From Bacteroidales bacterium (GTDB taxonomy: Bacteria; Bacteroidota; Bacteroidia; Bacteroidales; UBA932), in contig JAFROX010000011.1 in the NCBI GenBank assembly GCA_017429475.1, positions 1 through 45,272 on the forward strand: a DNA stretch of 45,272 nt, in the 5' to 3' direction. Under the pieces are notes generated by a model. That model was given only the letters and a program-made list of their open reading frames with translations. It did no database searches and had not been told where the DNA came from. Shown here piece after piece: positions 294-12,899 of the stretch. The number at the start of each line of letters is the position of its first letter. Position 1 is the first letter of the stretch. The position numbers and the translations under genes were made by a program.

Positions 294-561
294 GTGGGAA
301 TACCTCACCCCTTGTCGCTATCGCGACATCCCCCTCAAGGGGGACATGCCGGAACCTGTCTTCGCTGTCGCTCAGCCAGAACCCGGGTGGCTCCGTGGCT
401 CGTGTCCTTCGGACACATCCCACACTCCGCCACGGCGCTGATGCGCCCTGTTAATCGTTTTAGGGCCATCGGTCGGGATTCGTGCCTATTTTCCGACCGA
501 GATGAACTTTCGGAGCATCTCGGCCACGTTTTAGGCCTTATTTCCGTCCGAGATCAGAATC

Positions 562-602
562 CGAAATGTACAAGGTCTGCAAAATTGCGACAGACCTTGC
601 AC
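562..602 (+). repeat. 41-nt palindromic repeat, copy 1
   Basis: This is an imperfect hairpin with arms AAGGTCTG and CAGACCTT around an 11-nt A/T-rich loop. The whole 41-nt unit is the exact reverse complement of 23434-23474, about 23 kb away. A relative with the same outer arm logic (GTACAAGGT/ACCTTGTAC) lies at 652-686. An intergenic location plus a stable hairpin suggests a REP-like or MITE-like family. No transposase is visible in the window. Confidence 0.8.
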
Positions 603-651
603 ACTTCTTTTTTGTATCTCCCTAAATCCTAATGATTTACAATTTTGTGGT

Positions 652-686
652 GTACAAGGTATGCGCTGTTTTAGCACACCTTGTAC
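652..686 (+). repeat. Hairpin related to the 41-nt repeat
   Basis: A nine-base perfect stem (GTACAAGGT with ACCTTGTAC) has an inner TGC/GCA stem. It shares the TACAAGGT-type arm with the 41-nt unit at 562-602. It lies about 70 bases upstream of hicB, so it could act as a transcription or RNA-stability boundary. That role is inference. Confidence 0.6.
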
Positions 687-758
687 GCTTGAGTACCTTT
701 TTTGCCTTATGAACGCAATATTTGATATATTTTTATATATCTTTATGACGTATATGAT

Positions 759-1181
759 ATGAAAACAGTGAAGTTTAAGAAACAGGTAATTATCAACGTG
801 GATTGGGCTGATAAAATTTTCGGTGCCGCTCCTGCAAACGAGAAAGTTGCGTGCGTGGCTACCGGAAAAGATATCGAGGAGGTTGAGAAAAATATAGTAG
901 AAGCCATCAAGTTCCATATTGAAGGAATGAAAAAGTATGGCGAGGAAATCCCTGAAGAGTTTGTAGGGGAGTGGGAACCTGTATTTAAACTTACCGCGCG
1001 GGCGCAGATAAGATACTCGGATAACTATATTACCAGGAAGGCACTTGCAAAGGAAACTGGTATAGCAGAGCAGCAGTTAAGTCATTATGCGAACGGACAA
1101 AGAAAACCGAAGCCCGCAACCCAGCAGAAAATCGTAGCCGGAATATTGGCTATCAGCAAGCGATTGATGTTTGTTTCCTGA
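759..1181 (+). CDS. hicB: HicB-family antitoxin with C-terminal helix-turn-helix (no HicA partner seen)
   Basis: The 140-residue protein starts with a partial RNase H-like fold typical of HicB: strands, then a helix EEVEKNIVEAIKFHIEGM. It ends in a DNA-binding domain (residues about 85-135) with the segment ALAKETGIAEQQLSHYANGQRKP. HicB normally neutralises the small mRNA-cleaving toxin HicA and represses their shared promoter. No HicA-like frame lies in the 126 bases upstream or before the next gene, so this is an orphan or relies on a distant partner. It is AT-richer than genes further right. The ATG at 759 starts at the expected domain boundary. Family assignment is fairly sure; activity as an antitoxin is unproven. 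Confidence 0.75.
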   Translation: MKTVKFKKQVIINVDWADKIFGAAPANEKVACVATGKDIEEVEKNIVEAIKFHIEGMKKYGEEIPEEFVGEWEPVFKLTARAQIRYSDNYITRKALAKETGIAEQQLSHYANGQRKPKPATQQKIVAGILAISKRLMFVS

Positions 1182-1229
1182 TAGTGAAAGTACTTTTTGC
1201 GCAAATTATCTCATTAATTAAAAAAAATT

Positions 1230-1261
1230 GTTACTACCAAGCAGTCTTTTTCTCCGTTGTA
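1230..1261 (+). promoter_or_regulatory. Possible ECF-type (autoregulatory) promoter
   Basis: GTTAC (1230-1234) and CGTTGTA (1255-1261) lie 20 nt apart. This resembles the AAC-like -35 and CGT-like -10 arrangement of ECF-sigma-dependent promoters. Transcription would begin near 1268, which suits an ATG start at 1285 and excludes the TTG at 1228. That the neighbouring sigma protein uses this promoter is inference. Confidence 0.35.
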
Positions 1262-1284
1262 GGACTATATATTATAGAGACGGT

Positions 1285-2994
1285 ATGTTTACGATGGAGA
1301 TAACAAGGCTGATTGAAAGGTGCAGACAGGGGGACGCGGATGCCCTCGGCGAATTGTACAAGGCATACGCCCAACAGATGAGGAGCGTATGCCGACGTTA
1401 TATCAACGACGAGCAGACGGTGGAGGATGTGCTGCACGATGCTTTCGTCATTATCTTCACTTCGTTCGACAGGCTGCGCGACGTGCGGCGGGCAGAATAT
1501 TGGATGACGGCTATCACAAGAAACGTAGCGTTGAAATGTAAAGATCATTTGGAGGCATTACCAAGAGTTTCGCTTGAAGAGAAGAGTCAGGCTGAGATAA
1601 TTGCCCCAGAGGACGAGGAGAGAAACGTGAAAGGGGTGCCGCTGTGTGCGGTGGTGAGAATGATAGACAATTTGCCGGAGGGCTACGGGCAAGTGTTCCG
1701 AATGTCGGTGTTTGAGGGTATGACGCACAAGGAGATTGCCGACATGCTGGGCATCGAGCCTCATTCGTCATCATCGCAGTTGTCGCGGGCAAAGAAGATG
1801 CTGCGCAAGATGATGCAGCAGTACTGGGTTGCCGGGCTTCTGTTGCTGCTTATTCCTGCTACATTCTTTCTGCTTAGGAAAGGAGATACAACTGTCATGG
1901 ATGAAAAATCAGTTGTGGCGGAGCAGATAGAGGCACATGATGAATTACCGCAAGATTCTAGGACGGAAGAACCACAGGAATCGGTAATCGTCATATTACC
2001 AGTTCATCATACAACAGTCGTTGCTGCAGACACCCTGCAGTCAGCAATGGCTCAAGTTGTCGATTCTGTCGCGTCTGATACCTTATCTATCATACTACAG
2101 GGGCAGACAATCCCTGATAGTACAGCAACTGACTCGACCAAGGCTATACGCAACGTGACGATACCGCATTATGACATTGCCGATATATCCCCTGGCAATC
2201 CAGCCAAAGGCACAAGTCGTCAGCAAAAGTGGTCGGTGGAGATAGCTTACGTTGGAGGTTTTGGTGAACAGTATTATAACCGTCCATACAGTTTTAGCGA
2301 AATACCTATGGAAAGTCCGACTGGAGAGCCACCTTCGCCTGTCACCTTCGAGAACTGGAGTGATTATGCCACCTATCTGTCCGAACTTCCGGCTGATGCC
2401 ATCAGCGCCACCCGTAGTGTCGTTATGAATATCGCCCTAAATAATGTTGGCGATGCCGTAGGTAAAGGCGCAGATAAGATTGTGCGCAAGAGCCACCACT
2501 ATATTCCAGTTAACATCTCCCTGGCATTAAAATATAAATTGAATAATCGCTTCGGATTGGAGACTGGATTGAGCTATAGTCGTATGAGGTCTGAATTTGA
2601 GATGGGGTCAAACGGCAATACCATCAACGAGAAGCAGACGATCCATTACCTTGGAATCCCCGTAAAGGGCATCTATAATATGTACATAGGCAAAGCGTGG
2701 ACTCTGTATGGCAGTCTCGGTGTGTCTACAGAAATCCCTGTCTATTCACCGCTCAACACTAGTTATTACTTGCATGGCGCATTGAAGGCTACTGATAATT
2801 CTACTATCCACTCACCTTGGCAGTTATCAGTTGGTACGGGTCTCGGATTGCAGTATAGCATCACGCCTACAATCAACTTGTTTGCCGAGCCAAGTTTGCA
2901 ATACTACCTCCCGACAGGCGGTGGCGTTGAGACATATCGCACTGAATATCCGTTTACGTTCTCTTTGCCAATGGGCATCAGATTTACGTGGTAA
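1285..2994 (+). CDS. ECF sigma factor fused to a membrane helix and an outer-membrane beta-barrel
   Basis: Counting from ATG 1285 (569 residues; ATG 1294 is also possible), the protein has four parts. Residues about 20-90 are sigma-70 region 2, with YINDEQTVEDVLHDAFVIIF and the -10-binding helix around RRAEYWMTAITRN. Residues about 119-177 are region 4, an HTH with FEGMTHKEIADMLGIEP and QLSRAKKMLRK. Residues 180-198 form one hydrophobic helix starting YWVAGLLLLLIP. Residues about 200-315 are a Ser/Thr/Asp-rich linker. Residues about 316-569 look like an OMP_b-brl/PorT-type barrel with alternating strands, ending in an aromatic residue (FTW), as barrels recognised by BAM do. If the frame is genuine, one protein would span cytoplasm, inner membrane, periplasm and outer membrane. 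The usual Bacteroidota layout is a separate sigma gene plus an anti-sigma/barrel gene. The frame is open throughout, with no sign of a frameshift. Confidence 0.85.
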   Translation: MFTMEITRLIERCRQGDADALGELYKAYAQQMRSVCRRYINDEQTVEDVLHDAFVIIFTSFDRLRDVRRAEYWMTAITRNVALKCKDHLEALPRVSLEEKSQAEIIAPEDEERNVKGVPLCAVVRMIDNLPEGYGQVFRMSVFEGMTHKEIADMLGIEPHSSSSQLSRAKKMLRKMMQQYWVAGLLLLLIPATFFLLRKGDTTVMDEKSVVAEQIEAHDELPQDSRTEEPQESVIVILPVHHTTVVAADTLQSAMAQVVDSVASDTLSIILQGQTIPDSTATDSTKAIRNVTIPHYDIADISPGNPAKGTSRQQKWSVEIAYVGGFGEQYYNRPYSFSEIPMESPTGEPPSPVTFENWSDYATYLSELPADAISATRSVVMNIALNNVGDAVGKGADKIVRKSHHYIPVNISLALKYKLNNRFGLETGLSYSRMRSEFEMGSNGNTINEKQTIHYLGIPVKGIYNMYIGKAWTLYGSLGVSTEIPVYSPLNTSYYLHGALKATDNSTIHSPWQLSVGTGLGLQYSITPTINLFAEPSLQYYLPTGGGVETYRTEYPFTFSLPMGIRFTW

Positions 2995-3097
2995 GGATGC
3001 GGTCTTCTCACATTTAGAAATTGAAGAAAAACGCTTGCCTCATGCAGTCATTCGCTGCAGTTACAGACTTTATAAGTAGAAACTGCAACGAATTATT

Positions 3098-4153
3098 ATG
3101 TATAAGATTTACGATTATGCCTACAACGGCTACCTCTATCTAAATAACATAATGCGGCCATGCCATAAGCAACTGTCGCAATTGATGATTTACTCAACAA
3201 CTGCCTGCCAGTCGCGCTGCAAGCATTGCAACATCTGGCAGAAACGGGTGGAACATCTATCTCTTGACGACATCCGCCTAATTATGCAAAGTAAGTGTAT
3301 CACTAGGCAGACAACCGTAGGACTAGAGGGTGGTGAGTTTATCCTGCATCCTCAGGCTGTTGAAATTATGGCGTGGTTCCGCAAACATCACCCAAATTAC
3401 ACACTGCTTTCTAATTGCCTCGCGCCCCGTCGTGTTATTGATGCCGTCCGTCTCTATCAGCCCCGGCACTTATACGTCTCTCTCGACGGAGGTCGCGATA
3501 CTTACCAGCGTATGCGTGGGTGCGACGGCTATGACCGCGTAATTCAGGTGGTGGAGGAGCTGAAGGACGAAGTGCCGCTATCGCTGATGTTTTGCCTTTC
3601 TCCTTGGAACAACTTCGATGATATGGCCTTTGTCATCGGCATTGCCAGGCAATATGGGGTGGACGTGCGCATTGGTATTTATGGGACGATGGCCTTTTTC
3701 GATACGACTAGCGAACTGCTGACGGCTTCCGACTTCATCAGTCAGATTCCAGCTGGTATCCACCAGACGCAAGAAAATTTCGACTTTGTTGCACTCTACG
3801 ACCAATGGCGTAATGGCCATTTGCGAATGCGTTGCAAAAGCATCATGAGTAGTCTTGTCATCCATAGTAACGGTGACGTACCACTCTGCCAGAATCTCGC
3901 CGTCACTCTTGGCAACATCCACAGCCAATCGCTCGACGAGATTTTCAACAGCGCAGCATCCTGCCAGATGCAGTGCTATTACTCAAAGAACTGCAACGAC
4001 TGCTGGATCAACTTTCATCGCAAGTACGACATCATTCTTCTGCGAAACTTAGAGCGCTTTCTGCCAAAACGGATCATAGAGAAGTTCTATGGTTCATATC
4101 AGTGGACTGAAGATCCACGCACTACTTATCGTCAATACTTTAATAACTTATGA
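3098..4153 (+). CDS. Radical SAM protein with C-terminal SPASM-like cysteines
   Basis: The 351-residue enzyme has the radical SAM 4Fe-4S motif CxxxCxxC as C37, C41 and C44 (ACQSRCKHCNIW). A GGE-type SAM-binding segment (LEGGEF) follows, then a TIM-barrel-like body with LYVSLDGG. The C-terminal region carries further cysteines (MRCKSI, DVPLCQNL, CQMQCYYSKNCNDCW) like the auxiliary cluster of SPASM or twitch enzymes such as MoaA, PqqE and sugar-modifying radical SAM proteins. The sequence GDVPLCQNLAVTLGNIHSQSLDEIF matches the SPASM pattern in which a cysteine follows 'dG'. The substrate is unknown. It is 103 nt downstream of the sigma-barrel gene and overlaps the next gene at ATGA, so it is probably co-translated with it. 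Confidence 0.87.
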   Translation: MYKIYDYAYNGYLYLNNIMRPCHKQLSQLMIYSTTACQSRCKHCNIWQKRVEHLSLDDIRLIMQSKCITRQTTVGLEGGEFILHPQAVEIMAWFRKHHPNYTLLSNCLAPRRVIDAVRLYQPRHLYVSLDGGRDTYQRMRGCDGYDRVIQVVEELKDEVPLSLMFCLSPWNNFDDMAFVIGIARQYGVDVRIGIYGTMAFFDTTSELLTASDFISQIPAGIHQTQENFDFVALYDQWRNGHLRMRCKSIMSSLVIHSNGDVPLCQNLAVTLGNIHSQSLDEIFNSAASCQMQCYYSKNCNDCWINFHRKYDIILLRNLERFLPKRIIEKFYGSYQWTEDPRTTYRQYFNNL

Positions 4154-5187
4154 TAGATCAATTGATAGCACGTTACAAACGTATTCGTACTGAGTGTTTA
4201 CTTGCTCAAACATACCATTGTTTTTATGCCTTTGTAGGTATGGGGCAACATTCGCTCACCAACCTCTATCCTGTGCTCCACTACCTTGGTGTGCCTCTGA
4301 AATACATTTGCGTCACTTCTGAGAAGAAAGCCAGACTGATAGAACGGAAGTTTCCTCATGTAAAGACCACAACATCTCTAGTTGATATTCTCAGCGACGA
4401 AACAATCAAAGGTGTTTTCGTCTCCGCATCACCCACCGCACATTTCTCCATCGCCTCGCGAATTCTGCAAAGTGGCAAGTCGCTCTTCATAGAAAAACCG
4501 CCGTGTCAGACGCTGCAGGAACTTGATGCCCTCATTGACAAGCGGCGAATGTATGGCTCGCCTGTCACTATGATTGGACTGCAGAAACGCTATGCACCTG
4601 CCGTGCAAATCCTTAAACAACGTCTGAGTAAAGAGATTCTTATCAATTACGATCTCCATTACCTCACTGGCAAATATCCGGAAGGAAATGCTTTACTCGA
4701 CCTTTACATCCATCCTATTGACCTCGTTACTCATATCTTTGGCAAGCCAGAAATCATAGCCTGCCAGCAAATAATCCCAGCATCCTATATACTCATGCTC
4801 AGACATCCACATATCGTCGGCACCCTGGAACTCTCCTCCTCCTATACCTGGACTACATCCGAAGAATCTCTCAAAATCTGCACGTCAAAAGGTGTCTACC
4901 GTCTTTCACAGATGGATGAATTGACCTACGAGCCAAAACCCTCTGCTATCCTGGGCATTCCCTGCGAGAAAGTTCACGCTTACAAACAAGTTGTAGAATA
5001 TCTCTATGCACGAAACAACCACTTGTCTATACTTCCTAACAACCAAATCTATTCGCAAGGCTACTTCAGCGAGGTACAATCCTTCATAACATCAGTTGAA
5101 CATAACCATTCATTTGTCCTCACGGATATTGCTACAGTTAGGCCGACTTACGAAGTCTTGAGGAGCATATGCAGGCTTTCTTCATGA
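4150..5187 (+). CDS. Gfo/Idh/MocA-family oxidoreductase
   Basis: The 345-residue protein has a Rossmann NAD(P)-binding half (residues about 25-125: FVGMGQHS, a beta-alpha-beta with LVDILSDETIKGVFVSASPTAH, then the family EKP signature as FIEKPP). The C-terminal alpha/beta half includes a conserved-looking LYIHPIDLVTHIFG. Family members are sugar or inositol dehydrogenases and related enzymes. The initial glycine motif is less standard than usual. The start overlaps the radical SAM stop by 4 nt (ATGA). Radical SAM plus Gfo/Idh/MocA pairs occur in sugar-modification clusters, so a carbohydrate or glycolipid substrate is a reasonable inference. Base composition is clearly AT-richer than the genes beyond 5240. 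Confidence 0.85.
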   Translation: MIDQLIARYKRIRTECLLAQTYHCFYAFVGMGQHSLTNLYPVLHYLGVPLKYICVTSEKKARLIERKFPHVKTTTSLVDILSDETIKGVFVSASPTAHFSIASRILQSGKSLFIEKPPCQTLQELDALIDKRRMYGSPVTMIGLQKRYAPAVQILKQRLSKEILINYDLHYLTGKYPEGNALLDLYIHPIDLVTHIFGKPEIIACQQIIPASYILMLRHPHIVGTLELSSSYTWTTSEESLKICTSKGVYRLSQMDELTYEPKPSAILGIPCEKVHAYKQVVEYLYARNNHLSILPNNQIYSQGYFSEVQSFITSVEHNHSFVLTDIATVRPTYEVLRSICRLSS

Positions 5188-5239
5188 TATAGTGAAAATT
5201 TGCAAGCGATTACTAAGTCGATACTGCTCCTGAATTTTG

Positions 5240-7510
5240 CTACATAGCTGTAAATCTAACTGAGGCGGAGTGGCCGTTGGCGTCGATGAGGGTGAGGGTG
5301 TGGGGGCCGTGCTCGGGGATGATCTTGAGCTTGTGCTCTCCGTGGGAGGTTTCGCCGAGATATGTGCCGTCAAGATGCCAGTATATGGTGGCCTGCGGAT
5401 CGCTGTGGGCTGCCGAGCAGACTATGCCCTGGCTGCGGGCATCAAGTGCTACCGGGGCTGCGACCTGCATTCCTTCCTGAGGGTAGATGATCTCGATGAC
5501 TCCGGAAGCCCGTGAACCTGTATAATTCGGATGGTAGGGTGGCAGGGGATGGTAGTCGCTGTGGCTCTTCATATAGTACCATTCCTGGGCCGGGGACAGC
5601 ACGAAGCGGGATACATTCTGTATTTCGGATACCGGCCAGCAGTCGCTGTCTACCTGATATTTCCCGTCAGGACTGAGGTGCACAAGTTTGTGATATGGGC
5701 AGAGAGCAGGCCTCTGGGGAGCATTGGGGGCGAGGACTGCAACTGTGCCGTCGGCCTCGCACAGGTCTGTCGCCGGATGGCCGCTCAGGCTGCAGCATAT
5801 CACTTCTTCCAGCGAATCGTCGGGCTGCTCAAACCAGCTGGTGGAAGGCAGCAGGCCGAAAAGGTCGAACATCAGAGGAGCCGCATAACCGACTCCCGTG
5901 AGCAGGGGACGGCCCTCACCGTTGCAGTTGCCCACCCATACCGCCACCACATAGTCGGGTGTGGCTCCGACTGCCCAGGCATCACGGTTTCCATAGCTCG
6001 TGCCGGTTTTCCAGGCAATCTGCCGGCTGGCGTGGAAGGTGTGCCAGTCTCCTTCCTCTTCCGGGCGGTTGACCTCAGTCAGGGTGTCGAAAGTGCACCA
6101 GATCGCCCCGCGCGAGAGAGGACTGACCTTAGCGGTCTGTGTATCCTGCAGTGCATTGGACATCCTGGCATAGGCCGTGGCAAGATCCCATAGCTTGATC
6201 TCAGCTCCTCCCAGGATGAGGGACAGACCGTAAGTGTCTGCACCTCGGGTGATTGTGGTGAACCCGGCTTGCTGCAGCAGCCGGATGAACTTCTCGACAC
6301 CGTATTCGTGCAGCATACGTACAGAAGGAACGTTGAGAGAGCGCCTAATCACATCCGCTGCCGGCACAGCTCCGTCGAATGTATGGTTGAAGTTGCTTGG
6401 TGTGAAATCTTTATAGTGAAAAGGAATGTCCGAAACCAGCGTCTGTGGCAGGATCAGCCCTTCGTCGAGCATCGCTCCGTAGAGCAGGGGCTTTAGGGTG
6501 CTGCCGCTGCTGCGGGGAGCCTGCACCACGTCGACATTGTCTCCGTGGATTCCCGATTCGTGACCGATATTGCCGCAATATGCAATTGGTTTGCCGCTGT
6601 GCACATCCAGGATTACTGCGGCGGCATTGAACACTTCGTTGGTGGCGAAGACTTCTCCGTGACGCTGCAGCACTGCTTCGGCCCGTTGCTGAAGGCTGAA
6701 GTCGATATCGCTCTCTATTCGAGTGTCACCGAGTGACTTGCGCTGAGTCTCAAGGTAGTGGTAGGCTAGTTCAGGAAGGGGATGGGGCTTGTCGGGCAGA
6801 GGCTCGTCCTTGGCCAGTTCGCAGGAGAGGGAGTCGATGTCCCCAGATGCGCACAGCTGGTCGAGCAGGAAATTGCGCTTGGCAAGCAGTGCGTCGCGGC
6901 TCCTGCCGGGATGGATCATTGCCGGTGCGTTCGGGAGTACCGCCAGCGTGGCGCTCTCAGCCCAGGACAGCTGGTCCGCAGGCATACCGAAGTAGCGCCA
7001 GGCGGCAGCCTCGATTCCTACGACATTTCCTCCGAACGGCGCATTTGACGCATACATTGCGAGGATATCCTTCTTGCTGGTATAAAGTTCGAGCCTGAGC
7101 GCGAGGACCATCTCCCACAATTTCTCCACTACGGTGCGGGGCGGATTGCTGCGGCTCAACCTGATTGTCTGCATCGTGATGGTGCTTCCGCCGCTTCGGA
7201 CTTCGCCGCTGCTCAGGTTGAGCTTCATAGCCCTTGCCAGAGCCAGAGGGTCTACGCCCGGGTGGTGCCAGAAGCGCTTGTCTTCAAACCGGACTATAGC
7301 ACGCGCGAACTTTTCGGGAACCGTGTCGGCGGCTGGGAATCTCCACTGCCCATCGGCGGCGATGCGTGCGCTCAGCAGACGCCCGTCGCTGCTCTCCAGC
7401 ACTGCGCTGACCGGATTGTTGAAAAGCGGCCTTGGCCGAAGCGCCAGCGCCAGCAGGGCTACTGCCGCGACTATGCCGATCAGTATGTGAATATTCTTGC
7501 GCAAGGACAA
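5240..7510 (-). CDS. pbpC: Penicillin-binding protein 1C (bifunctional peptidoglycan synthase)
   Basis: Read from TTG 7510, this is a 756-residue protein close in length to E. coli PbpC (770). An N-terminal membrane helix (HILIGIVAAVALLALAL) is followed by a GT51 glycosyltransferase with FEDKRFWHHPGVD (Glu at about 76) and GGSTITMQ. The transpeptidase has the SxxK site STLK (S337, K340), SLN and KTGTSYG. The C-terminal 85 residues match the BiPBP_C domain typical of PbpC. The frame is open to an ATG at 7657, but that extra part is antisense to the macroglobulin signal peptide and lies upstream of the likely promoter. Another TTG at 7504 is also possible. Divergence from an alpha-2-macroglobulin gene fits the known PbpC/macroglobulin pairing. 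Confidence 0.93.
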   Translation of the reverse strand: MSLRKNIHILIGIVAAVALLALALRPRPLFNNPVSAVLESSDGRLLSARIAADGQWRFPAADTVPEKFARAIVRFEDKRFWHHPGVDPLALARAMKLNLSSGEVRSGGSTITMQTIRLSRSNPPRTVVEKLWEMVLALRLELYTSKKDILAMYASNAPFGGNVVGIEAAAWRYFGMPADQLSWAESATLAVLPNAPAMIHPGRSRDALLAKRNFLLDQLCASGDIDSLSCELAKDEPLPDKPHPLPELAYHYLETQRKSLGDTRIESDIDFSLQQRAEAVLQRHGEVFATNEVFNAAAVILDVHSGKPIAYCGNIGHESGIHGDNVDVVQAPRSSGSTLKPLLYGAMLDEGLILPQTLVSDIPFHYKDFTPSNFNHTFDGAVPAADVIRRSLNVPSVRMLHEYGVEKFIRLLQQAGFTTITRGADTYGLSLILGGAEIKLWDLATAYARMSNALQDTQTAKVSPLSRGAIWCTFDTLTEVNRPEEEGDWHTFHASRQIAWKTGTSYGNRDAWAVGATPDYVVAVWVGNCNGEGRPLLTGVGYAAPLMFDLFGLLPSTSWFEQPDDSLEEVICCSLSGHPATDLCEADGTVAVLAPNAPQRPALCPYHKLVHLSPDGKYQVDSDCWPVSEIQNVSRFVLSPAQEWYYMKSHSDYHPLPPYHPNYTGSRASGVIEIIYPQEGMQVAAPVALDARSQGIVCSAAHSDPQATIYWHLDGTYLGETSHGEHKLKIIPEHGPHTLTLIDANGHSASVRFTAM

Positions 7511-7540
7511 TGAAATTTTCGCTACATTAGTATACCTAAA

Positions 7541-7548
7541 CAAAAATA
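7541..7548 (-). promoter_or_regulatory. -7 promoter element for pbpC
   Basis: On the minus strand this reads TATTTTTG, matching the Bacteroidota TAnnTTTG consensus. A second TATTTTTG-like run lies at 7551-7558. Transcription would begin close to the TTG start codons at 7510 and 7504, so the transcript would be nearly leaderless. No clear -33 TTTG is seen. Confidence 0.4.
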
Positions 7549-7568
7549 GCCAAAAATATATAGTCGAT

Positions 7569-10500
7569 ATGAAAAAGATTTTAGTTGCACTGAGTCTTGT
7601 ACTGTCATCAGTTATACTTGTGTCCTGCGGCAGCAAAGCTGACTGTGTCGCCGACATTTCGAAGGAGATCCGTGTGGACGATCCCGTGACCGTACGCCTG
7701 TTTGACGCTTATGTCCTCAAGGACAGCGACCAGACAATCCAGGCGGCCAAGAAGGCTATCTCGATCGTGCCTAAGGTAGATTTCAATGTCCAGATCGTTG
7801 ACAACCAGACACTCTGCATCGTTCCGGTCCAGCCTCTGGAATACAATACCACATATAAGGTGACAGCCGATTTCGGAGCCATAGCCGGCACTTCTGCATG
7901 CAGGAAGAGTTTCGAAGTGAAGACTCTAGCACCGGTGCTGCTGTTCGACTACAGCAAGCTTACCTGCTATTCCGGGGTAGAAGACCGCTATCACGTCGAC
8001 CTTGAAATAACTTCGCCTGAAGCCCTTGACGGCAAGTACCTCGAGAACGGATTTTCAGTGAAGGGTGCCGCCGCCCAGCTGGCGTGGGTGCATTCCGAAG
8101 ACGGTCGCACGCACACGGTGACTGTCGGTGACATTCAGGCCACAGAGAAGAAGGGCAAGGTGGAGCTGGTGTACAGCTGGCCTAAATATGCTGCTGAAGG
8201 CTCGCGAAGCTTCGCAGTGCCGGTCAAGGGTGTCTTCGAAGTGGTCGACAGCGAGGTTCAGTCCGATCCTTATGGCGTGGAGTTGGCTTTCTCGGCCTCT
8301 CTGGATACCAAGCAGGATTTCAGCAGTCTGGTGTCTATGCCTGGCGCCGGCCGCCTCTCCTTCATAGCAGTGGAAAATGTCCTGAGGATAATCCCTGCCG
8401 TCCAGGCTGAAGACCGTCAGTTCATTTCGGTGAGCAAAGGCATACGCAGCGAGAAAGGCAGTAAACTGGATGCTGACTTCGAGCGCTGGCTCGAGATACC
8501 GAGCGGCGAGCCTATGGTGAAATTCCTGTCGAAGGGTGTGGTAATTCCTTCATCAGGCGAAATGAACATTCCTTTCCAGGCCATCAATTACAGCAAGGTA
8601 AGGGTACGTGTAAAACAGATATACGAGAATAACGTGCTGCAGTTCCTGCAGGGCAACAAGCTTGGCGATGCCTGGAGCTATACAGACAATGTAGCAAGAG
8701 TGATTCTGGACACCACACTAGTTCTAGGCGAGGCTAATTCGGCCCGGCTGCGCAATCTCAGCACCTACGGCCTGCACGTGGCAGACCTTGTGAGGGTTCA
8801 GAGGGGTGCAATCTACAAGCTTGAGATACGCGGAGTGGATCCTCTCAAGGAATTCGATGACGATCACTACGAGAGCGATTACTATTTCGGAAGCTATAAT
8901 GACTACTCCAACCGCGTGCGCAACATCCTCGTTTCAGACCTTGCTGTCATAGGCAAGGGGTCGGACAAGGGAGAGTATACTGTCTTCGTGACGGACATCC
9001 GTTCTGCGCAGCCCGTTTCCGGCGCTAAAGTGACACTCTACAACTCAGTCAACCAGGTGATAGGAGAGGGTACGACCGGCACAGGAGGACGTTTCACCTG
9101 CTCTGTCAAGGATGACCAGGCACTTACTGCCGTCATCACCAAGGGAGAGGACAAGAGCTATCTCTCTATGGCGGCTGGAAGTTCTATTTCAATGAGTGGA
9201 TTTGATGTGGACGGCAACGCTTCCCGCAAGGGACAGAAAGGTTACATATTCGGAGAACGCGGCGTCTGGCGTCCAGGTGACGAGATCCACCTTACTTTCA
9301 TTTCCATGCTTGACGATGGAGTTCTTCCTGCCGGCCATCCCGTTACTGCAACACTCAGCAACCCGCAGGGTCAGGTGATAAGCACTCTGGTGAACAATTC
9401 CGGACACGACGGAATGTACAGCTTTACGTTCAAAACTCCCGACGACGCTCCTACAGGCAACTGGGAGGCAGCCGTGACAGCCGGCGGCATCACCTGGTAC
9501 AAGACGGTCAAGATAGAGACCGTGAAGCCCAACAATATCGTCATAGATCTGAAACTCAATGACAAGCCTGTCCTCGAAAGCAGGGACATCCGCGGTGACA
9601 TCGACGCCCGCTGGCTCGTCGGCCACCCTGCCGTGGATCTCGAGACCCGCGTAGAGGTTGCCCTTACCAGGGGAAAGACAGCCTTCGACAGCTACAAGGA
9701 TTATGTGTTCGAAGACCGCTCGCGCAGTTTCTCATCGCAGGAGAAGGAGATTTTCAGAGGAAAGACCAATGACAGCGGCCATACTTCCTTCAATACGTCT
9801 TTAAAGGCAGAAGGTGACGCGCCGGGTATGATCACCGCAACTTTCACTTCCCGCGTGTTCGAGAAGAGCGGCGATTTCAGCATCGACCGTTACACTACGA
9901 CACTTTCGCCTTACGATACCTATATCGGACTGAACGTTCCCGAACAGGAAGACGAATGGGGTGAGAGTTATCTCGACAAGGACCGCAGCCATACCTTCCG
10001 TCTGGTAGCAGTGGACGGGAAGGGCAATCCTGCCAGAGGCAACGTCAAGGTAAATGTGGAAGTCTACAAGATGGGCTGGAGCTGGTGGTGGAGTTCATCG
10101 TCAGACGGCCTTGCTTCATACGCGAAAGACTCGTACAATCAGCCGAGCAACGAGTTCGCGGTGACATTGACAGGCGGAACTGGAGAGTTCAAGATGGACT
10201 TTGCCCGTGAGGACAGCGGTTTCTGGTTCATAAGGGTGACCGACCCCAATGGAGGCCACGCTGCTTCTGCCGTTACGATGGTCCGCAACAGTTACGAGTC
10301 AGCAGGTGCCGGCAGCTCGGATGCCGCCATCCGACTGGCGATGTCTATCAACAAGGAGCGCTTCAATGTCGGTGAGACCGCGCAGCTGAGCATACCTTCA
10401 GCCAGCGGTGCACGTGCACTTGTGTCAATAGAAAAAGGCCAGCGCGTCCTCAAGAGCTTCTGGGTTGAATGCAAGGGAGAGAAGACCGATATCTCCATTC

Positions 10501-12899
10501 CCATCGAAGCTGGTATGGCTCCCAACGTATATGCGACAGTGACGCTTGTCCAGCCTTACAACAATACGGAGAATGACGCACCTATCCGTCTATTCGGCGT
10601 GCAGCGCATCCTCGTGGAGGAGCCTGCCACCCATCTGAATCCTGTCATCGACATTGCTGCCGAAGTCCAGCCTGAGAAGGAAGTATCCTTCACCGTTAAG
10701 GAGAAGGACGGCCGGCCGATGAGCTATGTCGTGGCACTGGTCGATGAGGGCCTTCTCAGCCTCACGCGCTTCAAGACTCCTGATCCCTGGAAGAGTTTCT
10801 ACGCTACGGAAGCGTTGGGAGTCCGCACCTGGGATCTTTACGATCTGATTCTCGGAGCATATGGCGCAAGGATGGAACAGCTCTTCGCAATCGGCGGTGA
10901 CGCTGAAGGAGATGTGGCCATCACACCCAACAGCAAGGCTGACCGCTTCAAACCGGTATCGCTCTTCATCGGACCATTTACCATCAAGGCAAAAGGCTCG
11001 GGAAGGCATACGGTGAAACTGCCTCAGTATATCGGCAATATGCGAGTTATGGTAATCGCCACTGACGGCGCTGCAATGGGCTCGGCCGACAAGAGCGTCC
11101 TTGTGACGAAACCCGTTATGGTAAAGGCCACCCTGCCCAGGGTAATCGGCACCGATGAGGAGGTCGTACTTCCCGTGACTGTCTTTGCCAATAAAGACGG
11201 GGTGGGTTCTGTGACAGTTGAACTGAAGGCTGACGGAGCGCTCTCAGTCGCCGGCAGCAACACGGCTACGGTCAACCTGCCCAAGGCCGGAGAAGCGCTT
11301 GCCTACTTTACCCTGAAGGCTGATGCATCCACAGGAATCGGTACGATCCACACTGTGGCGAAGGGCGGAGGCGACAGTTCTGCGGAAGACCTTGAAATAG
11401 ATGTGCGCGACCCCAACCCGGTGACTGCCAATTCCATTGTGAAACTTGTTGAAGGCAGCCAAAGCTTGAAGATACCGTTCACACTTGCCGGACGCGCGGG
11501 TACCAACTTTGTGGCTGTAGAAGCATCTACGATACCTCCCGTCGACCTGGACTACCGTCTGTCTTATCTGACGACATATCCTCACGGCTGTCTGGAACAG
11601 ACTGTATCCGCCGCATTCCCTCAGCTCTATCTGGGTGATCTGGTGGATCTTGAGAGCAGGGAGATCAATACTACCGCGGACAATGTCAAGGCAGCATTGA
11701 ACAGGCTCAGTTCATTCGCAATTTCTTCTGGCGGTATGACGACCTGGCCCGGAACTTCATCATATTCCGGAGCAAATGTCTGGGCTACAGTCTATGCAAC
11801 GCACTTTATGATTGAGGCTCAGAAGGCCGGCTATGCTGTTCCTGCGGCACTGCGTAAATCCAATCTGTCCTATCTGCGTACGGTGGCCTCCAGCGGAAGT
11901 TACAATGCAGAATCCCGTGCGTACGCTCTATATGTGCTCGCCCTTGCCGGTTCTGCAGACCGTGGCGGTATGAACAGACTCCGCGAGGATCTGGCCAAGC
12001 TGCCGGAATCTTGCAGACTTCTGCTCTCGGGCGCTTATGTGCTCGACGGCAAGAAGGATGTGGCTCGCAAGATACTGCAGGAAACCAAGGCCGGCAGTGA
12101 ATCATACAACCGTTTCTCCGACAATTATGACAGTGAAGAGCGAGAGCAGGCAATCGCCGCTATGGTCTATACTGCACTTGGCGACAAGACTGCCGCCTTC
12201 CAGTGCATTGAGAAGCTCTCAGGCTGGCTCAACGACCGTGGGCATTTCATGAGCACCCAGAGTACTGCCTGGTCACTGCGCGCCGTAGCCGACTATATGA
12301 AGAACAATTCCGTCGACGGCCTGAACGTGAACTTCAGGACGGCATTCGGCGGGACGACTCTGAAGACTTCCAAGGCGATTGCACAAGGCTCCCTTGATGC
12401 GGGTGTCGGCAGGTCGCTCGATGTCGAAGTATCCAACAATTCCAAGGCGCCTGTTTATGTTGTCCTGAGTTCTACCGGCATTCCTGAGAAAGGAGAGGAG
12501 ATTTCCCGCGCAGACGGAATGCAGTTGACGGTTACCTACTCTTTGCCTGACGGCACAAGGGTGGATCCTGCATCCCTGCCTCAGGGTACCGATTTTGTCG
12601 TGACGGCGACCGTGACAAACACGAGTGCGACGACGGACTATACCAACGTGGCGCTGACTCAGATCTTCCCGTCAGGCTGGGAGATTCACGCAGAGCGTAC
12701 CGATGCGATGTACCAGGATTTCCGCGATGACCGCGTTTACTCATACCTCAATCTCAGACGAGGCACAAGCGTCACTGTCACAACACGGATGACAGCAACC
12801 TACAAGGGCCGCTTCTACCGTCCGGCCACCGTTTGCGAGGCGATGTATGATGCAAGGATAGGCGCGTCCGTCCCCGGAGGATGGTGCGAGGTAAAATAG
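7569..12899 (+). CDS. Bacterial alpha-2-macroglobulin lipoprotein
   Basis: The start at ATG 7569 gives 1776 residues with a lipoprotein signal (MKKILVALSLVLSSVILVSC, lipobox LVSC). A series of macroglobulin beta-domains follows, including an Ig-like N-terminal part, the MG1-MG10 region and a bait-like stretch. The thioester motif GCLEQ has Cys at about residue 1341. It is followed by the alpha/alpha-toroid (repeats such as TTWPGTSSYSGANVWATVYATHFM) and a C-terminal receptor-like beta-domain. The family traps proteases that breach the envelope and commonly pairs with PbpC, which then repairs the wall. An in-frame TTG at 7497 would add 24 residues before the signal peptide and is rejected. Length and motifs are as in intact family members. 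Confidence 0.94.
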   Translation: MKKILVALSLVLSSVILVSCGSKADCVADISKEIRVDDPVTVRLFDAYVLKDSDQTIQAAKKAISIVPKVDFNVQIVDNQTLCIVPVQPLEYNTTYKVTADFGAIAGTSACRKSFEVKTLAPVLLFDYSKLTCYSGVEDRYHVDLEITSPEALDGKYLENGFSVKGAAAQLAWVHSEDGRTHTVTVGDIQATEKKGKVELVYSWPKYAAEGSRSFAVPVKGVFEVVDSEVQSDPYGVELAFSASLDTKQDFSSLVSMPGAGRLSFIAVENVLRIIPAVQAEDRQFISVSKGIRSEKGSKLDADFERWLEIPSGEPMVKFLSKGVVIPSSGEMNIPFQAINYSKVRVRVKQIYENNVLQFLQGNKLGDAWSYTDNVARVILDTTLVLGEANSARLRNLSTYGLHVADLVRVQRGAIYKLEIRGVDPLKEFDDDHYESDYYFGSYNDYSNRVRNILVSDLAVIGKGSDKGEYTVFVTDIRSAQPVSGAKVTLYNSVNQVIGEGTTGTGGRFTCSVKDDQALTAVITKGEDKSYLSMAAGSSISMSGFDVDGNASRKGQKGYIFGERGVWRPGDEIHLTFISMLDDGVLPAGHPVTATLSNPQGQVISTLVNNSGHDGMYSFTFKTPDDAPTGNWEAAVTAGGITWYKTVKIETVKPNNIVIDLKLNDKPVLESRDIRGDIDARWLVGHPAVDLETRVEVALTRGKTAFDSYKDYVFEDRSRSFSSQEKEIFRGKTNDSGHTSFNTSLKAEGDAPGMITATFTSRVFEKSGDFSIDRYTTTLSPYDTYIGLNVPEQEDEWGESYLDKDRSHTFRLVAVDGKGNPARGNVKVNVEVYKMGWSWWWSSSSDGLASYAKDSYNQPSNEFAVTLTGGTGEFKMDFAREDSGFWFIRVTDPNGGHAASAVTMVRNSYESAGAGSSDAAIRLAMSINKERFNVGETAQLSIPSASGARALVSIEKGQRVLKSFWVECKGEKTDISIPIEAGMAPNVYATVTLVQPYNNTENDAPIRLFGVQRILVEEPATHLNPVIDIAAEVQPEKEVSFTVKEKDGRPMSYVVALVDEGLLSLTRFKTPDPWKSFYATEALGVRTWDLYDLILGAYGARMEQLFAIGGDAEGDVAITPNSKADRFKPVSLFIGPFTIKAKGSGRHTVKLPQYIGNMRVMVIATDGAAMGSADKSVLVTKPVMVKATLPRVIGTDEEVVLPVTVFANKDGVGSVTVELKADGALSVAGSNTATVNLPKAGEALAYFTLKADASTGIGTIHTVAKGGGDSSAEDLEIDVRDPNPVTANSIVKLVEGSQSLKIPFTLAGRAGTNFVAVEASTIPPVDLDYRLSYLTTYPHGCLEQTVSAAFPQLYLGDLVDLESREINTTADNVKAALNRLSSFAISSGGMTTWPGTSSYSGANVWATVYATHFMIEAQKAGYAVPAALRKSNLSYLRTVASSGSYNAESRAYALYVLALAGSADRGGMNRLREDLAKLPESCRLLLSGAYVLDGKKDVARKILQETKAGSESYNRFSDNYDSEEREQAIAAMVYTALGDKTAAFQCIEKLSGWLNDRGHFMSTQSTAWSLRAVADYMKNNSVDGLNVNFRTAFGGTTLKTSKAIAQGSLDAGVGRSLDVEVSNNSKAPVYVVLSSTGIPEKGEEISRADGMQLTVTYSLPDGTRVDPASLPQGTDFVVTATVTNTSATTDYTNVALTQIFPSGWEIHAERTDAMYQDFRDDRVYSYLNLRRGTSVTVTTRMTATYKGRFYRPATVCEAMYDARIGASVPGGWCEVK

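Follow-up and report, generated by a model that had tools for sequence, protein, structure and literature searches.

A single-chain sigma factor and outer-membrane barrel in Bacteroidales: layout, family and a proposed mode of control

How could an ECF sigma factor be kept in check when it is built into the same polypeptide as an outer-membrane barrel? The question is raised by an open frame on the forward strand (1285-2994, ATG to TAA, 569 aa; a second ATG, also conserved, at 1294) of the window, that is the whole stretch of 45,272 nucleotides of a Bacteroidales contig analysed here. The first-pass annotation had read in this frame ECF regions 2 and 4, a transmembrane (TM) helix, a linker and a barrel; Pfam, an AlphaFold model and the homologues all agree, and the one-chain layout of sigma factor, TM helix, linker and barrel is real and confirmed.

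All parts of the chain lie on the forward strand. Region 2 covers residues 1-91 (1285-1557) and region 4 residues 120-181 (1642-1827); the corresponding Pfam matches are Sigma70_r2 at 24-83 (1.6e-9) and Sigma70_r4_2 at 123-173 (1.2e-13), and both families (PF04542, PF08281) are found in 59 of 59 aligned members. The TM helix (residues 182-199, 1828-1881) is placed by the hydropathy of 100 fused frames and by the AlphaFold model. It is followed by a disordered, presumably periplasmic linker (residues 200-315, 1882-2229), with a pLDDT below 50 at residues 198-311; the 116 aa up to the first strand agree with the roughly 115 residues given earlier and compare with 97-136 aa across 59 homologues. 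The OmpA-like barrel (residues 316-569, 2230-2991), with eight strands counted by eye and a C-terminal Trp, matches OMP_b-brl_2 at 404-540 (2.8e-11) and is present in the AlphaFold model, on which the annotation had made its reading depend; ten-residue pLDDT means are 59-86 from residue 316 until residue 400, then mostly above 90. Its long first loop (residues 324-399, 2254-2481) carries two helices and would lie on the surface side. The aromatic end that had been noticed is shared by most relatives, the last residue of 100 distinct fused frames being W in 90, F in 8 and L in 2. The sigma and barrel folds were confirmed with Foldseek and VIA-align. In NCBIfam the best match of the whole protein is TIGR02985, under its own cut-off, and the 50 viral matches listed are named as sigma factors or outer-membrane proteins, none of these 50 as both. 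The predicted membrane topology follows from the Lys/Arg-rich cytosolic side of the TM helix, and from the outer-membrane barrel that comes after it.

The claim that the TM helix starts a few residues past region 4 is borne out by the AlphaFold model, in which one helix (159-198) runs from the last part of region 4 through the TM segment, at modest confidence (pTM 0.45; mean pLDDT 63 at 181-190 and 50 at 191-200), so that in the model no spacer is left between sigma factor and anchor. In the family consensus, the conserved stretch of region 4 reads SSSSQLARAKKMLRK...YW and the junction HSSSSQLARAKKMLRKMMQQYW, and a short TM helix follows. Trp181 is kept in 54 of 59 rows and Pro191 in 57 of 59; a proline lies within the TM core of 96 of 100 fused proteins as against 20 of 57 split ones, i.e., relatives encoded by two genes (three of the 60 split barrels, which have no clear TM window, were left out of this count). 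In the fused frames (n = 100) the TM window lies 17-25 residues (median 21) past the start of the region 4 serine motif, and in the split partners (60 barrels, counted from the first Met) it is preceded by a cytosolic segment with a median of 47.5 aa. A profile built from half of these split N-terminal segments and tried on the other half, with the near-copies L079 and L187 dropped, finds 25 of 28 held-out split proteins at E 1e-3 and none of the 100 fused frames (best E 2.5). As judged by this profile, the fused proteins have no counterpart of the anti-sigma segment seen in the two-gene relatives, as the annotation had supposed for the stretch between region 4 and the helix. The known tethered sigma factor IutY has a FecR-like periplasmic anti-sigma domain; no such domain was found in the window protein with Pfam at E 1. 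The anchor is left as the sole visible restraint, since no anti-sigma segment was found. A separate sigma gene had been taken as the usual arrangement, and the genome of the window itself holds three such two-gene versions, each with a sigma factor and a partner made of cytosolic segment, TM helix, linker and barrel.

A joined frame of this kind could result from a sequencing or assembly error, or from a decaying gene with a chance loss of its stop codon. The window does lie at the start of its contig, in a genome that is 80.3% complete, and within the genus the fused gene is found in one of 26 genomes only, the window's own (match at E 1e-28). The same junction, however, recurs in 100 distinct frames (59 of them aligned), and the gene is under purifying selection; the artefact reading is refuted by homologues that keep the junction, and an error of this kind is close to negligible as an explanation. 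Regarding selection, in 12 gene pairs dN is lower than dS for sigma factor, TM helix, linker and barrel, bar two comparisons (one of the TM helix without any change and one of the barrel with saturated dS), and in 8 of the 12 dN is highest for the linker. Column conservation peaks at 3.66 bits in region 4, with 3.56 in the last strand and 3.44 in region 2, and is lowest at 1.99 in the link between sigma2 and sigma4, with 2.02 in one three-residue turn and 2.10 in the linker. Three residues of the first barrel loop, W358, Y361 and N387, are nearly invariant among homologues.

The homologues are not consistently split at the junction. Among the named loci (best 80 of 480 relatives), the fusion is uninterrupted in 74; of the other six, L111 has a broken frame and five are cut by a contig edge. 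Most of these best 80 named records are metagenome-assembled genomes whose submitters labelled them Prevotella, Prevotellaceae, Bacteroidaceae or Bacteroidales, with ruminants in many of the titles; two are called Muribaculaceae. The 58 named loci in alignment A2 have 34-76% identity to the window protein. Up to three or four candidates per genome were scored in the scans of the same family, of family f59, of the order and of the phylum, and the counts from these scans are therefore lower bounds. In the same family, at least 12 further genomes of 398 have fused homologues with 27-31% identity, each a single frame. In f59 a match spanning sigma factor to barrel is found in at least 60 of 301 genomes, two of which show one in-frame stop each, with at least 11 more partial matches (counted by hand). 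Besides f1, fused frames are present in families f5, f25, f59 and f111. At least 318 of 393 genomes in the order-wide sample pass E 1e-30, the matches listed being mostly of sigma factor or barrel alone; at least 3 of 395 genomes in the phylum sample pass E 1e-58, namely the window's own and two of f59, G455 among them, all three from this order in a sample where other orders are thinly represented. The copy in G455 (L162/L194; L194:4422-5914) consists of two overlapping frames, one for sigma factor and TM helix and one for the barrel, which meet just after the TM helix; it is either a natural split or a frame error. Candidate fused copies in three genomes of the window's genus (G004, G011, G007) were discarded, as open reading frame listing and translation gave two separate genes in each.

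In a tree of the sigma domain, a single branch with an SH-aLRT of 100 separates 40 fused rows, picked by hand, from 60 two-gene rows. The fused rows comprise 39 single frames and L162 (a split frame labelled as fused), L111 and L194 having been left out; the tree was made by a quick method with SH-aLRT as its sole support and midpoint rooting. The split set was drawn from the best sigma matches to the fused protein and is therefore no random sample of two-gene systems. Because two-gene forms are widely spread, we infer that two genes are ancestral and that the fused form is derived.

The fused gene is flanked by a gene for a small HTH protein (759-1181) upstream and a radical SAM gene downstream, the sigma factor itself lying within the chain. 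The HTH protein shows a weak similarity to HicB-like antitoxins. By Pfam, the downstream genes, both on the forward strand, encode a radical SAM/SPASM protein (3098-4153) and a Gfo/Idh/MocA oxidoreductase (4150-5187); among the NCBIfam models listed for 3098-5187, none matches either protein above its cut-off. As counted with a crude longest-frame script over 82 fused loci that include near-copies, the radical SAM gene lies at most five frames downstream in 45, the oxidoreductase gene in 39 and the gene of a lipoprotein of about 185 aa (cluster c2) in 42, and at least one of the three lies downstream in 64; in 7 further loci the lipoprotein appears as an antisense frame alone (antisense judged by eye). 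Radical SAM/SPASM and Gfo/Idh genes travel as a pair beside the fused regulator in many genomes. This pair is present in the cassette of the window, where the lipoprotein was not seen. Pfam shows no family common to any two of 32 lipoprotein members (best E 0.023), and the fold gave no PDB match at E 0.001; an example is L084:7175-7735 (alignment A3), whose model is confident from about residue 61.

The cassette lies in a segment (454-5239, no strand assigned) without counterpart in the same-genus genome G019, probably an acquired island. In G019, about 1.46 kb separates the flanks 178-453 (94%; a short match that sits at the end of the G019 contig) and 5240-12007 (88%). Next to the segment, within 5240-12899, a PBP1C-like gene on the reverse strand adjoins a forward frame of 1800 aa that presumably resembles an alpha-2-macroglobulin lipoprotein. 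The PBP1C gene has 96% identity to that of G019 and 92% to that of G005, both of the same genus, from which it follows that the contig belongs to this lineage; mis-binning was considered and ruled out on these grounds. Eight genomes with fused homologues, hand-chosen from the best 80 loci, were also searched for PBP1C: six have fused proteins with 68-76% identity, one has 50% (L131) and one is contig-cut with 87% over 194 residues (L143). Partial PBP1C matches of 31-33% turned up in five of the eight, and the other three had none at E 1e-20; for the six with the closer fused proteins, the figures are 31-33% in five and none at E 1e-20 in one. Since fused proteins are close in genomes whose PBP1C is distant, and G019 shows the opposite (PBP1C 96%, no fused gene), the cassette in the window genome was probably gained horizontally.

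Upstream of the fused gene lies a promoter-like element (1241-1266, forward strand) of the form GCAGTCTTTT-N9..11-GGAC(T), with GCAGTCTTTT at 1241-1250 and GGACT at 1262-1266, 44 nt ahead of the gene. A variant, GCAGTCATTC...CAGACT, precedes the radical SAM gene (3044-3069, forward strand), and variants are also found before the radical SAM genes of relatives. In an alignment of 46 fused upstream regions picked by hand, TGCAGTCTTTT is followed by a gap, GGACT and then ATAGAGA near the start codon. GCAGTCTTTT is found in 71 of 100 fused versus none of 61 split upstream windows, and GCAGT[CA]TTT in 87 of 100 versus 12 of 61; shuffled fused windows give mean fractions of 0.000 and 0.001, respectively. 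The loosest form of the element is present in 88 of the 100 fused windows (12 are without it), and in 80 of these 88 it begins 41-44 nt before the model start. Genome-wide, the exact pattern is found in 17 of 21 fused-gene genomes, chosen among close relatives (26 sites), versus none of 22 genomes in which no fused gene was found; a reversed control pattern gave one match across the 43 genomes. By coordinates, 24 of the 26 exact sites flank the fused gene, the contig-cut copy L143 included, and the other two lie before a truncated second copy and, by eye, before a radical-SAM-like ORF start.

Other genes of the locus also carry the element. With up to two changes it precedes 45 of 77 fused, 35 of 41 lipoprotein (c2) and 17 of 44 radical SAM genes, as compared with none of 39 Gfo/Idh genes and 5 of 557 other genes; with one change allowed in GGAC, the counts are 56 of 77, 38 of 41, 37 of 44, 0 of 39 and 23 of 557. 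In one clade, it stands ahead of the lipoprotein gene that precedes the fused gene (5 of 6 members), and in divergent clades GCAGT[CA]TTT is mostly kept and the downstream part differs. Within the window, a search that kept the gap at 10 and tolerated three mismatches at most gave 4 matches versus 3.65 expected, a setting under which the real site, with its gap of 11, itself scores as three mismatches. Position and co-occurrence suggest that the fused sigma factor reads the GCAGTCTTTT element and, because the element recurs, with changes, before the neighbouring lipoprotein and radical-SAM genes, it probably serves its own locus. Fused genes are not alone in having the -35 part, as a GCAGTATTT form is found in 12 of 61 split windows, i.e., 11 loci (L002 and L008 are one locus counted twice). 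A related GCAGTATTT element was observed upstream of the split sigma genes L164, L165, L167, L176, L177 and others. That 11 two-gene sigma loci carry it suggests a promoter class shared by the wider group of fused and two-gene systems. No word starting with GCAG occurs in the available portions of the texts of PMC13114119 and PMC12596196.

The reading preferred here, to which a probability of roughly 0.6 is given, is that of a one-chain regulator spanning the envelope, whose sigma factor would be silent while anchored and freed by proteolysis. Most simply, a Das/Dma (ECF21-type) pair of sigma and anti-sigma genes would have merged in a single, ancient event in which the anti-sigma domain was lost. 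The sigma factor would then be tethered at the inner membrane by the region 4 helix running into the TM helix, the disordered linker would span the periplasm and the OmpA-like barrel would sit in the outer membrane. While anchored, the sigma factor would be unable to form a working holoenzyme. A surface signal or a failed barrel assembly may lead a periplasmic protease to cut the linker, upon which an RseP-type protease could cut the TM helix near the conserved proline and free the sigma factor. Once free, it would act at GCAGTCTTTT-N9..11-GGAC-like promoters to transcribe the gene that encodes it as well as the lipoprotein and radical SAM/Gfo-Idh genes next to that gene. In this scheme we infer the silence while anchored, the proteolysis and the signal, candidates for the latter being an unassembled barrel or a partner that binds the conserved first loop. 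Release of a tethered sigma factor by proteolysis is plausible by analogy, with IutY as a precedent. An RseP-type M50 protease is encoded in the window genome, and the same search matches 14 of 14 control genomes, so that its presence says little. The broader proposal, that a widespread Bacteroidales family wholly devoid of an anti-sigma domain holds an entire surface-to-promoter pathway in one polypeptide, silenced by anchoring alone through the continuity of the region 4 and membrane helices and serving a small local regulon marked by GCAGTCTTTT-N9..11-GGAC, is tentative and stands at slightly under even odds.

Three other modes of control have to be weighed against this scheme. The barrel might act purely as a reporter of assembly: left unassembled, it would offer its aromatic C-terminus to a protease of the periplasm and free the sigma factor without any ligand. 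The last residue, W or F in 98 of 100 fused frames, would fit, but outer-membrane barrels commonly have an aromatic residue at this position. For the split relative EcfO-Reo, a response to outer-membrane or envelope stress is proposed in the parts of the reports available (PMC9308784, PMC13114119), which also favors a reporter of assembly; against it, the near-invariance of W358, Y361 and N387 makes the long first loop look more like a binding site, and release without a ligand is rather unlikely. It can also be imagined that the sigma factor works while anchored, as a membrane-bound regulator whose conformation or position is altered by the barrel with no cut at all. The absence of a matching anti-sigma segment, the conservation of regions 2 and 4 among the best-kept parts and the closeness of the promoter-like element to the fused gene are what this would lead one to expect. 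However, region 4 and the TM segment share one helix in the model, with no spacer, and IutY, the closest experimental precedent of a tethered sigma factor, needs RseP according to the portion of the report available (PMC5411451); activity in the anchored state is thus considered distinctly unlikely.

Finally, a separate anti-sigma protein or the neighbouring lipoprotein could hold the sigma factor inactive, the fusion merely localising it. The lipoprotein would be the natural candidate, being encoded at most five frames downstream in 42 of 82 loci with the promoter-like element ahead of 35 of 41 of its genes. Against this, it has a lipobox, from which a location outside the cytoplasm would follow, it has neither a shared Pfam family nor a PDB fold match at the thresholds given above, and it was not seen in the cassette of the window; a separate inhibitor is considered unlikely. 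To our knowledge, no sigma factor is known to be inhibited by anchoring alone, and such anchoring, if true, would be a new regulatory principle for sigma factors. With the helix, the proline, the promoter-like element and a few candidate target genes now named for laboratory work, whether an event at the outer membrane can reach a promoter through a single protein has become a directly testable question.

How the fused protein compares with described systems can be stated for two-gene regulators, for tethered sigma factors and for Dma3. Dma1/Das1, Dma2/Das2 and EcfO-Reo share with it the TM helix, the long disordered tether and the C-terminal barrel; as far as their descriptions go, they differ in having a separate sigma factor and a partner with a cytosolic anti-sigma domain, neither of which applies to the window protein. 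According to the part of the source available, Dma proteins consist of an N-terminal anti-sigma domain, a TM helix, a disordered tether and a barrel, the targets of Dma1 and Dma2 being sigma factors of the ECF21 family (PMC13088901). In the two-gene loci of the present analysis, the sigma and barrel domains are related to the fused ones, and 11 of these loci carry a similar GCAGTATTT element. IutY from Pseudomonas putida (ECF243) likewise combines a sigma domain, a TM segment and a periplasmic part in one chain; the cytosolic sigma domain is tethered by this TM segment and released through Prc and RseP, as the accessible text has it (PMC8999054, PMC5411451). The latter source, as far as available, places an anti-sigma domain in the periplasm and describes IutA as a distinct receptor in the outer membrane, in contrast to the barrel within the chain of the window protein (PMC5411451). 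In the model of the latter, the linker is disordered and the barrel belongs to the chain, which sets it apart from the IutY type. We know of no outer-membrane barrel in ECF48, ECF52 or ECF53. These sigma factors of Actinobacteria share with the window protein a C-terminal TM extension and an expected proteolytic regulation but, in the available part of the review, carry zinc-finger, anti-sigma-like extensions, unlike the window protein, which is without an anti-sigma segment (PMC8999054).

The supposition that no regulator with this layout had been described did not hold: Dma3 of B. thetaiotaomicron is described with a sigma domain at its own N-terminus, and the layout is therefore already in print, for a kind that is almost unstudied. 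Among the literature covered, mostly as titles and the beginnings of abstracts, PMC13088901 alone mentions it. In the part of that source available, very little is known about Dma3; its locus is raised in dma1 and dma2 mutants, and the tests reported gave no vesicle-production phenotype (PMC13088901). Another partially available report gives BT2778, labelled as a sigma factor gene, a ratio of about 2.3 in its iron-dependence tables (PMC10434189). The present results define a family for the Dma3-like kind, its members found here being without an anti-sigma segment. Dma3 (bt_2778-2779), as known from its description, and the window protein both combine a sigma factor and a barrel in one chain with no cognate sigma gene adjoining (PMC13088901).
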